Below, piece by piece: positions 10,646-45,896 of a stretch of 64,000 nucleotides of DNA. The stretch covers positions 1-64,000 of the forward strand of contig JAPKYK010000001.1 in assembly GCA_026394395.1 (NCBI GenBank), given 5' to 3'. Position numbers and translations under genes: made by a program. Under the pieces are notes generated by a model. It had not been told where the DNA came from. It saw only the letters and a list, made by a program, of their open reading frames with translations, and did no database searches. Position 1 is the stretch's first letter, and each line of letters begins with the position of its first letter. The stretch comes from Methanomassiliicoccales archaeon. Lineage in GTDB: Archaea; Thermoplasmatota; Thermoplasmata; Methanomassiliicoccales; UBA472.

Positions 10646-11090
10646 GCCCTTCCAGCCTCTTCTCTATGTTCTTCCAATGCGCCCCCTGCCAGTAGACCTT
10701 CCCGCAGCTGGCGCAGCGCCAGAAGTCCTGATATCCGTTCCAGGTGCCCTCGGCCACCTCGTCCTTCACCGATCCCCGGTCCACCGCCTGCAGCTCTCCG
10801 TTGCAGGCGGTGCACCTGCGGTACGACTGCTCCGTTCGCAGACCGAACTCAGCCACGACCGCAAGCAGCTGAGCGTCGAGGTCCATCTCCGAAACGCAGA
10901 ACCCCCGCTCCCCCGCCCTTTCGGCCAACTGACGGTCCCGGGTCAGCAGGTGTCGCTCGTTCCCCTGCAGCAGCCTTAGCATATCGGCGTCCGCCAGATC
11001 GCGCATGTAACGTGCATCGTACCCCATGATGCGCAGCCAGCGGGCCAGCGAGCCCAGCATCCCGTCCAGGAGGAAGGAGGGCTCAGCCAT
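10614..11090 (-). CDS. Mut7-C RNase-domain protein with zinc ribbon
   Basis: A 158-aa protein. The N-terminus FLLDGMLGSLARWLRIMGYDARY and the LLTRDRQLAERA segment match the Mut7-C domain, a PIN-like RNase fold. A zinc ribbon follows, formed by CTAC near residues 93-96 and CASC near 127-130, then GKVYWQGAHW. Substrate unknown; RNA is likely. Its start overlaps the stop of the reductase gene upstream by 8 nt, so the two are coupled. Confidence 0.85.
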   Translation of the reverse strand: MAEPSFLLDGMLGSLARWLRIMGYDARYMRDLADADMLRLLQGNERHLLTRDRQLAERAGERGFCVSEMDLDAQLLAVVAEFGLRTEQSYRRCTACNGELQAVDRGSVKDEVAEGTWNGYQDFWRCASCGKVYWQGAHWKNIEKRLEGLSRGPGNSPR

Positions 11091-41771: not shown

Positions 41772-41905
41772 GGGCCCGTAGCTCAGCTAGGTAGGACCTT
41801 CGGAGACGAAGGGTCCCTAGAGAGAGCATCTGGCTTTTAACCAGGTGGTCCGGGGTTCGAATGGTACGCGGTAATTCCGTGTATGCGGAAATCCCCGCGG
41901 GCCCG
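41772..41905 (+). tRNA. tRNA-Lys (anticodon UUU) with two introns, in the D loop and the T loop
   Basis: Exons 41772-41792, 41823-41861 and 41892-41905 join to a 74-nt tRNA: GGGCCCG/CGGGCCC acceptor, GCTC/GAGC D stem, loop CTTTTAA (anticodon TTT), CGGGG/CCCCG T stem, TTCGAAT loop, discriminator G. Intron 1 (41793-41822, 30 nt): D stem, then a 4-bp CTAG/CTAG helix flanked by 3-nt bulges GTA and AGA, then an inner GGACC/GGTCC stem. Intron 2 (41862-41891, 30 nt): T stem, 4-bp TTCG/CGGA helix (one G-U) with bulges AAT and AAT, then an 8-bp inner stem after a G-G mismatch. Both fit the bulge-helix-bulge substrate of the archaeal splicing endonuclease. The anticodon loop itself has no intron. Confidence 0.9.
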
Positions 41906-41974: not shown

Positions 41975-42027
41975 CCGACACTTAGTGGAGGAACGTCCCG
42001 GTTTCTGCATGGTATGAGGTGATTCAT

Positions 42028-42294
42028 TTGGAGGATTCCGTACCATTTAACGTATTGAGCCACAAGATGGTGCCTGTCCACGAACTCTTGAGCGATGAGG
42101 AGGCAGACGCGGTCCTAAAGCAGTTAAAAATCACCCGCGACCAGCTTCCCAAGATCAAGGACATCGACGCCGCCATCAAGACGCTCGAGAAGGCCATGAA
42201 CAGGAGCATCCCTGAGAAGAGCATCATCAAGATCATCAGGGACAGCCAAACCGCAGAAATAGCGGTAGTCTATCGTCTCGTTATAAGAGGGTGA
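42028..42294 (+). CDS. rpoH: RNA polymerase subunit H (Rpo5)
   Basis: The archaeal counterpart of the Rpb5 C-terminal domain, 88 aa from the TTG at 42028. TTG is chosen because GAGGTGAT lies at the right distance; a GTG at 42019 would fall inside that site. [20 protein letters not shown] and [20 protein letters not shown] are diagnostic. The stop overlaps the rpoB start by 4 nt. Confidence 0.93.
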
Positions 42295-45200
42295 ACCTAT
42301 TGAGGGATCTGGTCGATCTTTATTTTAAGGAGAACAGTATCGTTAACCATCATATTGCCAGTTTCAACGATTTCCTAGCGTCGCAGGCCAACCCCAACAG
42401 CCGCATGCAGAAGATCGTGGACAACGTACGCGTGGTGGCCGAGGACCCCGAAAGGGGCATGATAACGCTGGACCAGGACAAGACCAACGGCAGGATCATC
42501 CAGATCCGCGTGGGTCGCCGCCGGGACGAGAAGACCGGACAGGTCGACCCGCACCTTAAGCCCACCCTGCACATCGGCGAGCCCATGGTCCGAGAGGCCA
42601 ACGGGTACATCCACAACATCACTCCCATGGAGGCCCGTCTGAGGAACCTCAACTACCTGGCATCCATCTATCTGGACTTCACCATAATCGAGGACGGCAT
42701 CGAGAAGGAGCCGGAGAACGTGCACATCGGCGACCTGCCCATAATGGTGAAGTCGCAGAAGTGCAACATATACAAGGAGAACCTGGAGAAGGACTACGAG
42801 CTGACCGACGAGCAGTACAACACCGAGCTCATGAAGAAGAGCGAGGACCCCATGGACGCCGGCGGTTACTTCATCATCGGCGGTACGGAGCGCGTCCTCA
42901 TCACGCTCGAGGACCTGGCGCCCAACCGGGTGATGGTCGAGCTGAGCGAGCGCTACGGCACCGCCATGGAGGTGGCCAAGGTCTTCTCGCAGAAGGAAGG
43001 CCACCGCGCTCTCACCCTGGTGGAGAAGAAGCGCGACGGCATGCTCATGGTCACCGTTCCCGCAGCCTCCGGCCAGATACCCCTGGTCGCCCTCATGAAG
43101 TCCCTGGGGATGGAGAACGACGAGGAGATCTACGAGGCCATAGTCTCCAGCCCGGAGATGGCCAACATCGTTTACGCTAACTTGGAAGAGATCCAGGACC
43201 CCAAGGTGTACGGTCCCACGGGCATATTCACCACCGAGCACGCCTTGACGTACCTGGAGAAAAAGTTCGCCACCGGCCAGGCCAAAGAGTACCGGGTCAA
43301 GAAGGTCGAGTCCATCATCGACCGCTCCCTGCTGCCCCACCTGGGCGACACCAAGGAGGACCGCCTCAAGAAGGCCATCTTCCTAGGAAGGATAGCCAGG
43401 TCCGTGCTCGAACTTTCCCTGGGCAAGCGCAAGGAGGACGACAAGGACCACTACGCCAACAAGCGCCTGAAGCTCTCCGGCGATCTTATGGAGGACCTGT
43501 TCCGGGTGGCCTTCACCAATCTGATGAAGGATTTGAAGTACCAGCTGGAACGCTCCTACGCTAGAAAGAAGGATTTGCGCATAAGCTCGGCCATCAGACC
43601 GGACCTCATGACCCACCGGTTGCTGCACGCTCTGGCGACGGGCAACTGGGTGGGCGGAAGGGCCGGTGTCAGCCAGCTGCTGGACCGCACGTCCAACATG
43701 AGCACCATCTCCCATCTGAGGAGGATCACCTCTTCCCTTACCCGCAGCCAGCCTCACTTCGAGGCTCGTGATCTGCACCCGACGCAGTGGGGCCGCCTGT
43801 GCCCCAACGAGACCCCCGAGGGTCAGAACTGCGGACTGGTGAAGAACGCCGCACTGATCATCAACGTCTCCGAAGGCTTCCGCGAGGAGGACGTGACCTT
43901 CCTGCTGAAGGACCTGGGCGTGCGCGAGGTGCGCGGCCAGCAGATGTCCGGCACCCGCGTGTACATCAACGGTGACCTGAAAGGGGTGCACGACGACCAC
44001 ACCTACTTGATCAACGAGATGAGGAACCGCCGCCGCTCCGGTCTGCTATCGGACGAGATCAACATCCGCTACGACGAGGAGATGGACGAGGTCATCATAA
44101 ACTGCGACGAAGGCCGTCTGCGCCGCGCCCTGATGGTGCTGAAGGATGGTCGCCTCATGATCACCAGAAAGCACCTGGAGGACATCCGCGCCGGTAAGAT
44201 GCGCTGGTCCGACCTGGTGCGCGAGGGCGTGCTGGAATGGATCGACGCTGAAGAGGAGGAGGACACCTTCATCGCCGTCGAGCCCTTCGAGGTGCCCCGC
44301 AAGTGCGGGAACTGCGAGAGGGACATCTCCCCACTGGATATGGATTGGATGAACCCCGGCACCACCGACAAGCACGCCGAGCTGAAGTGCAAGCACTGCG
44401 GTGGCATAACCAAGGTGGACTACCTGTTCAACAAGGCCCACACCCACATGGAAGTGGACCCCATGGTCATCCTGGGGGTCTGCGCTGGAATGGTGCCCTA
44501 CCCGGAGCACAACTCCTCCCCGCGTGTGACGATGGGGGCAGGAATGGCCAAGCAATCGCTAGGACTGGCGTCCAGCAACTACCGCAAGCGGCCGGACACC
44601 CGCGGGCACATATTGCATTACCCGCAGAAGCCCATGGTGCAGACCAAGTTCATGGACTTCGTGGCCTTCAACCAGCGCCCGGCCGGCCAGAACTTCGTGG
44701 TCGCCGTGCTTTCCTATCACGGCTACAACATGGAAGACGCGCTCATCCTGAACCAGAGCAGCGTGCAGCGCGGTCTCGGGCGCTCGACGTTCATGAGGAC
44801 GTACCGCACCGAGGAGCGCCGCTACCCTGGAGGACAGGAAGATCACTTCGAGATACCCTCCCCGGACGTGCGCGGGGCCAGGACCGACCTGGCCTACGCC
44901 AACCTGGGCGAGGACGGCCTGATATCGCCAGAAACGCCGGTCACCGGCGGGGACGTGCTGGTCGGAAAGACCTCTCCCCCACGCTTCGTGGAAGAGGAGG
45001 ACGCCAACTTCCTCACGGTCCAGAAGAGGCGTGAGACGTCCATCACCTGCCGTTCTGGCGAGACCGGCTGGGTGGACAGCGTCATGCTCACGGAATCGGA
45101 GAACGGTTCCCGTCTGGTCAAGGTCAAGGTCCGGGACGAGAGGATCCCGGAGCTGGGGGACAAGTTCGCCTCCAGGCACGGGCAGAAAGGAGTGGTGGGG

Positions 45201-45892
45201 CTGCTGGTCCCCTCCTGCGACATGCCCTTCACTACCGACGGGATCATCCCGGACCTGGTCATCAACCCCCACGCCATACCTTCCCGTATGACCGTGGCCC
45301 ACGTGCTGGAGATGATCGGCGGCAAGGTCGGCGCCCTAGAGGGACGCCACGTCGACGGCACAGCCTTCAGCGGCGAGCGCGAGGAAGCGCTCCGCCAGGC
45401 GCTGGTGGAGGCCGGGTTCCAGAAGACCGGCCGCGAGGTCATGTACGACGGCATAACCGGTCACATGATCACCGCCGACATCTTCATCGGGGTGATATAT
45501 TACCAGAAGCTGCACCACATGGTCTCTGGCAAGATGCACGTCAGGTCCCGCGGGCCGGTGCAGATACTCACCCGCCAGCCGACCGAGGGCCGGTCCAGAC
45601 AGGGCGGTCTGAGGTTCGGGGAGATGGAGAGGGACTGCCTCATCGGGCACGGCGCGGCCATGGTCATAAAGGACCGGCTGCTGGACGAGTCCGACGGCAC
45701 CTATCAGTGGGTGTGCGGGAACTCCAACTGCGGCCACATAGCCATATTGGACAAGAGGGGCTCGCTGCACTGCCCGGTGTGCGGTAACAACACCAACGTG
45801 CACATGATCCAGACGTCCTACGCCTTCAAGTTGCTGCTCGATGAGCTGCTCTCGCTTGGGGTCGCCATGCGCTTACAACTGGAGGATTTGAG

Positions 45893-45896
<4 letters not shown>
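42291..45896 (+). CDS. rpoB: RNA polymerase subunit B (Rpo2), undivided
   Basis: The second-largest subunit in one piece of 1201 aa, where many methanogens have it split into B'' and B'. GTG start at 42291 (TTG at 42300 also possible). The split point region around residue 490-520 runs through without a break ([23 protein letters not shown]). Catalytic blocks [12 protein letters not shown] and [17 protein letters not shown] are intact. A C-terminal zinc site is formed by CGNSNC and CPVC. It overlaps rpoA1 by 4 nt. Confidence 0.97.

Follow-up and report, generated by a model that had tools for sequence, protein, structure and literature searches.

Archaeal transfer RNA (tRNA) genes with introns outside the anticodon loop, or with two introns at once, have been described mainly from the Thermoproteales, where Pyrobaculum and Thermofilum hold several bulge-helix-bulge (BHB) introns in a single tRNA, up to three, at canonical and non-canonical sites (PMC8450103, PMC4033280). 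Their introns multiplied rapidly within the order and are met by an (alpha beta)2 heterotetrameric splicing endonuclease that bears a CSL loop. Euryarchaeal intron-bearing tRNA genes are described as having one intron at the canonical position, 37/38 (PMC4090602), and tRNAs with multiple introns beyond Crenarchaeota as restricted to few species, with Methanopyrus kandleri and Methanothermobacter thermautotrophicus as euryarchaeal cases (PMC4033280). The reviews see non-canonical introns as recent additions that arose once the enzyme type had changed (PMC4090602, PMC4033280). With tRNAscan-SE 2.0, 673 non-canonical introns were reported in 217 genomes, the newly found genes belonging mostly to Crenarchaeota and Thaumarchaeota (PMC8450103). 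Here we analyze a tRNA-Lys(UUU) gene with one insert in its D-loop and one in its T-loop, located in a 64,000-nt stretch of a Methanomassiliicoccales genome (hereafter the window). An initial annotation, made from the letters of the window, had already set this arrangement against that of Thermoproteales and against euryarchaeal introns at 37/38, a contrast that agrees with the reviews (PMC4033280, PMC4090602, PMC3218864), and a literature text search of partial coverage returned no paper on non-canonical tRNA introns in Thermoplasmata, although GtRNAdb may contain individual predictions.

The lysine gene shares with the Thermoproteales the presence of several BHB introns in one tRNA, but its setting differs: a predicted alpha'2 enzyme without the loop, few affected tRNAs, and sites conserved across a class. 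Korarchaeum cryptofilum is alike in that an alpha2-type EndA accompanies non-canonical introns (PMC4033280), and M. kandleri in having multi-intron tRNAs and an EndA without CSL or ASL (PMC6379350), although that enzyme is (alpha beta)2. Outside Thermoproteales, the Asgard groups Atabeyarchaeia and Freyarchaeia likewise have many tRNA introns at non-canonical sites or several to a gene (PMC11291895); introns occupy 92-95% of their tRNA genes, against 14 of 46 here, only one of which has two.

The gene lies on the forward strand at positions 41772-41905 of the window. Exon 1 (41772-41792, tRNA positions 1-20, recovered by BLAST as piece 1-23 of the spliced query) is followed by intron 1 (41793-41822, 30 nt), exon 2 (41823-41861, positions 21-59, anticodon UUU), intron 2 (41862-41891, 30 nt) and exon 3 (41892-41905, positions 60-73). 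Both inserts fall exactly where the initial annotation had placed them, between positions 20 and 21 of the D-loop and between 59 and 60 of the T-loop, and the joined exons form a 74-nt tRNA-Lys(UUU) with all 21 stem pairs intact, the perfect tRNA it had claimed. Because of the D- and T-loop introns, standard tools miss this gene: ARAGORN reports no tRNA-Lys(UUU) at these coordinates, even when run in its intron-tolerant mode, nor does the Rfam tRNA model at the gathering threshold. We consider it very probable that the gene yields a working tRNA-Lys(UUU) and that its two inserts are archaeal BHB-type introns, that EndA cuts both sites and RtcB ligates the exons, and that the introns are old and were lost jointly once. 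The identity of the inserts as introns is as sure as comparative evidence permits. Group I or group II self-splicing introns were considered and rejected, as their core would need hundreds of nucleotides, the inserts measure 28-51 nt in syntenic carriers, and Rfam has no match at the gene.

An uninterrupted second Lys(UUU) gene, which the initial annotation had named among the findings that would speak against it, did not turn up when the genome (1.64 Mb in 6 contigs, 99.85% complete) was searched with the spliced sequence. The single other lysine gene is the intact CUU isoacceptor. A CUU anticodon does not read AAA, and with the window gene as the sole UUU gene, AAA decoding depends on it. 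As a single-copy essential isoacceptor, the gene would have to be functional and its transcript spliced in the cell.

The same arrangement recurs in relatives, where the gene order tRNA-rpoH-rpoB is conserved. In the window, an rpoH-like gene for a small RNA polymerase subunit (42019-42294, forward strand, named from its own sequence without a family search) lies directly 3' of the tRNA gene, followed by rpoB (42291-45896, forward strand, 1201 amino acids), which served as tree marker and whose product is 94% identical to RpoB of the metagenome-assembled genome OWC_0010. Through RpoB we fetched 80 named loci; together with the window, 73 loci are scorable upstream of rpoH/rpoB. Both inserts are present at the same sites in 41 of the 73 (window included) and both are absent from 32, while no locus has only one. 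Among these carriers the exons are 97% identical (minimum 92%) and the inserts about 62%, insert length ranges over 29-51 nt in the D-loop and 28-34 nt in the T-loop, and 40 of the 41 intron-bearing cloverleaves are perfectly paired. The exons of the window and of an intronless relative (L076) are likewise 97% identical. On the RpoB tree, presence versus absence of the inserts amounts to one change. Three loci (L077, L080, L106) yielded no tRNA-Lys gene upstream of rpoH/rpoB, though near relatives have one there; the gene was probably moved or lost from the site.

Thirty-five of the carriers have the D- and T-loop inserts only, and six have an additional insert at 37/38. These three-intron tRNA-Lys(UUU) genes (20/21, 37/38 and 59/60), found upstream of rpoB in other Thermoplasmata (L090, L095, L096, L097, L105, L128), group together on the RpoB tree, set apart from the rest by a single branch. 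The same three sites are the junctions of permuted tRNAs of types I, II and IV in Cyanidioschyzon merolae (PMC3978253), and a permuted tRNA of Thermofilum pendens has its junction at 59/60, the T-loop intron site (PMC3218864). In those permuted genes the halves are swapped, whereas the lysine gene here keeps the normal order.

Each insert can fold with its flanking exons into a splice motif. The strict form, hBHBh', has a 4-bp central helix between two 3-nt bulges, and the literature also counts relaxed forms as members. At the D-loop site, fold analysis gives the central helix CUAG/CUAG (41787-41790 paired with 41817-41820, 4 bp) and two 3-nt bulges, 41791-41793 on the 5' side (predicted cut GU^A) and 41821-41823 on the 3' side (AG^A). 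A14-G15 (41785-41786) remain unpaired between the D-stem (41781-41784/41824-41827) and the centre, opposite the 3' bulge, which turns the 3' side into a 2x3 internal loop and makes this motif a bulge-helix-loop, a relaxed form. The initial annotation had called it a strict BHB; the centre and the bulges it described are there, the strictness is not. Its account of the T-loop site can be kept entire: the centre UUCG/CGGA (41856-41859 paired with 41886-41889, 4 bp) contains one G-U pair, apart from which the motif has the strict form, with 3-nt bulges at 41860-41862 (cut AA^U) and 41890-41892 (AA^U), an uninterrupted T-stem (41851-41855/41893-41897) directly adjoining the centre, and a G-G mismatch that opens the inner helix of intron 2.

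The helices inside the inserts covary. When distant families are compared, the six inner pairs adjoining the centre can form in 87% of cases for intron 1 and in 73% for intron 2, against means of 63% and 46% when the 3' strands were shuffled among species; none of 20,000 shuffles reached the observed values, and slid registers scored lower. Selection on RNA structure is the best explanation of this covariation. Together with the 41 loci that share both sites and their almost invariably well-paired cloverleaves, it sets the arrangement far apart from chance. Among relatives, intron 1 starts with A, T or C next to a fixed exon base, which sets the cut register of intron 1 and rules out the other registers. 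That the introns are maintained, as the initial annotation had suggested, is thus borne out by the sites shared among 41 loci and by the covarying helices. Of the two signals it had cited, the strict geometry does not extend to the D-loop motif, which is relaxed, and the two introns have equal lengths in just 7 of the 41 carriers, so that the equality is coincidental and without meaning.

To follow the introns further we scanned genomes with exact patterns, which undercount. These scans detected the D-loop insert in 58 of 250 genomes of the class (25 of 85 genera, 16 family codes) and the T-loop insert in 49 of 380 genomes of the phylum (24 of 154 genera, 12 family codes), and the arrangement is repeated in many independent assemblies, single-contig genomes among them. 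Two of the family codes with the T-loop insert, f22 and f45, fall outside the class, and four genomes of these two have it without the D-loop insert. From this distribution the T-loop intron is probably older than the class Thermoplasmata, and the D-loop intron appears to be about as old as the class. Intronless genes occur in many genomes of family code f33 and in f2, the sister family, which belongs to the same order. One joint loss at the base of the Methanomethylophilaceae, rather than a gain, is the simplest reading, because the intron-bearing side of the tree includes lineages outside Methanomassiliicoccales. A plausible route of loss is conversion by a copy of the mature tRNA, since the exons are nearly unchanged and the gene still stands upstream of rpoH. 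In one Methanomethylophilaceae-like genome of the sister family f2 (G058), nearly all tRNA introns are gone, not that of Lys(UUU) alone, including those of Thr(CGU), Ala(CGC) and Leu(CAA), and EndA is kept.

Why the pair has persisted elsewhere can be read in two ways. We lean slightly towards inserts that are useless and persist as their precise removal is rare, conversion with a mature-tRNA copy taking both at once. The disappearance of both in one change, in place and with nearly unchanged exons, fits this reading, as does the stripping of most other tRNA introns from G058; retention in one tRNA across many families could, on the other side, also reflect constraint. Such uselessness concerns why introns persist and is compatible with our account of their removal. 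It seems improbable, by comparison, that the inserts are kept for a function, holding the D- and T-loops apart so that the elbow forms only after removal, as a maturation checkpoint or an access window for modification enzymes. The idea draws on the motifs themselves: that of the D-loop pairs G18 and bulges G19, and that of the T-loop pairs U54-G57 and bulges A58-A59. These residues build the elbow of the mature tRNA, so splicing should precede final folding. The inserts are also kept or lost together in all 73 scorable loci. However, the conserved feature is the helices, not insert sequence or length; f22 and f45 include genomes in which the T-loop insert stands without its partner; and Methanomethylophilaceae and other families live without either.

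The enzyme is the second point at which this locus departs from described systems. The initial annotation had proposed identifying the endonuclease type, and the genome encodes a single PF01974 gene, for EndA, a protein of 362 amino acids with two PF01974 domains in one frame; the PF01974 search of the genome found no second subunit. Its best match in the PDB is 5x89 (EndA-like protein plus EndA), probably M. kandleri EndA, followed by Archaeoglobus fulgidus EndA (1r0v/2gjw). In the alignment, the segments FRVY, HSRYLV and VKKE match the active site of A. fulgidus EndA, which puts the catalytic Tyr, His and Lys in the C-terminal domain. Judged from its sequence, the enzyme is predicted to be a homodimer of alpha'2 type with an intact catalytic triad. 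Chain 3p1y appears, from the alignment and from a review's text on CSL insertion (PMC6379350), to be a CSL-bearing A. fulgidus chimera; at the site of its extra residues, 14 EndA sequences from the class all lack an insertion, whether or not their families carry the lysine introns, and the enzyme is thus predicted to have neither CSL nor ASL loop. The two-domain form of EndA prevails throughout the class, the exception being family f8, with a shorter protein and one match. An RtcB gene is present in the genome.

Such an enzyme would not have been expected at these sites. Alpha4 and alpha2 enzymes are described as cutting canonical motifs only, with Korarchaeum as the sole alpha2 archaeon with non-canonical introns as of 2014 (PMC4033280). 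Efficient removal of relaxed introns is ascribed to (alpha beta)2 and epsilon2 enzymes only (PMC6379350), and alpha'2 is said to be without a loop that could take up non-canonical bulges (PMC12397907). The reported narrowness of alpha'2 (PMC6379350) would favor another splicing enzyme or an accessory subunit at the D-loop site in place of alpha'2 EndA alone. With a single PF01974 gene, no second subunit, and 4-bp centres and 3-nt bulges common to all D-loop inserts of the genome, we hold this to be very unlikely. An alpha'2 enzyme that works independently of position is plausible, given that a homodimeric enzyme of Ferroplasma cleaves a minimal BHB (PMC8707768). We put forward, tentatively and at somewhat less than even confidence, that the Thermoplasmatota alpha'2 EndA accepts a broad range of substrates although it has neither CSL nor ASL loop, and that bulge-helix-loop junctions beyond the anticodon arm are among those it cuts.

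In the maturation that we propose, the precursor would fold one splice motif at each site, with the four bases ending at G18 paired to the CUAG of intron 1 and U54-G57 paired to the CGAA-like end of intron 2. At each of the four sites, homodimeric alpha'2 EndA would cleave behind the second nucleotide of the bulge, and RtcB would join the exons. Many lineages would have kept both introns, and the ancestor of Methanomethylophilaceae would have lost the two at once, by precise removal at the native locus. In favor of the account, the best fold holding all splice-motif pairs, at -63.5 kcal/mol, lies 2.5 kcal/mol above the unconstrained minimum of -66.0 kcal/mol. Several points weigh against it. 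Splicing and the cut positions are deduced from DNA, not RNA. In the unconstrained minimum both intron hairpins form, whereas the D-stem and the UUCG/CGGA centre are lost. The age of the introns and the order in which they were gained depend on the undercounting exact-pattern sampling and on where the tree is rooted. Finally, alpha'2 enzymes are called narrow, and bulge-helix-loop junctions such as the D-loop site are said to be handled poorly by them (PMC6379350, PMC12397907). A decaying pseudogene or an assembly error, with AAA decoded by another tRNA, can be dismissed with near certainty: it has in its favor that standard finders miss the gene, and it is already contradicted by conservation, namely the near-complete set of perfect cloverleaves, the exon identity and the many independent assemblies, besides the absence of another Lys(UUU) gene.

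The other tRNAs of the genome were surveyed as well, a check that the initial annotation had suggested. The set, combined from several searches, comprises 46 genes, with 15 introns in 14 of them: ten genes have an anticodon-loop intron and four a D-loop insert, and the T-loop insert is confined to Lys(UUU). The D-loop inserts of tRNA-Thr(CGU) (G000:C6:74606-74699; L016), tRNA-Ala(CGC) (C3:~10,840-10,933; L037) and tRNA-Leu(CAA) (C3:~321,208-321,320; L038) are 22 nt long, each with a 4-bp centre and 3-nt bulges. Those of Thr(CGU) and Ala(CGC) are fully strict, as no unpaired bases separate the D-stem from the centre, and that of Leu(CAA) is looser than the D-loop motif of Lys(UUU). The first-look filter of the family search skipped the intact Leu(UAG), Pro(GGG), Pro(UGG) and Arg(GCG), which shows that its lists fall short of a full inventory. 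Three of these, Pro(GGG), Pro(UGG) and Arg(GCG), had been candidates for genes hidden by introns and proved intact, and Cys, a fourth such candidate, carries an anticodon-loop intron; these four thus give no evidence for more hidden introns.

Two further observations concern tRNA sequences of this genome. The tRNA-Trp gene (G000:C1:~347,850-348,021; L039) has an intron of about 100 nt with C/D-box-like motifs. Archaeal tRNA-Trp introns are known to hold C/D-box motifs. At G000:C3:192184-208596, several tRNA 3' fragments, including a 35-nt tRNA-Leu(UAA) end, lie in partly AT-rich DNA and look like attachment scars of integrated elements.

The surprising parts of this system are the age and fixity of the intron pair, together with the type of enzyme. 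A D- and T-loop pair at fixed sites throughout a class with predicted alpha'2 enzymes runs against both the statement that euryarchaea with alpha4 or alpha2 endonucleases have single tRNA introns at 37/38 and the statement that non-canonical introns are recent additions brought by a new enzyme type (PMC4090602, PMC4033280). The lysine genes of this group, with D- and T-loop introns, the T-loop intron only, all three introns or none, offer a natural substrate series for probing what the enzyme reads. If the broad range of the Thermoplasmatota alpha'2 EndA is true, broad specificity would have a third route, the rule by which the architecture of the enzyme determines where tRNA introns lie would no longer hold, and that range would have in the lysine introns a natural marker of great age.
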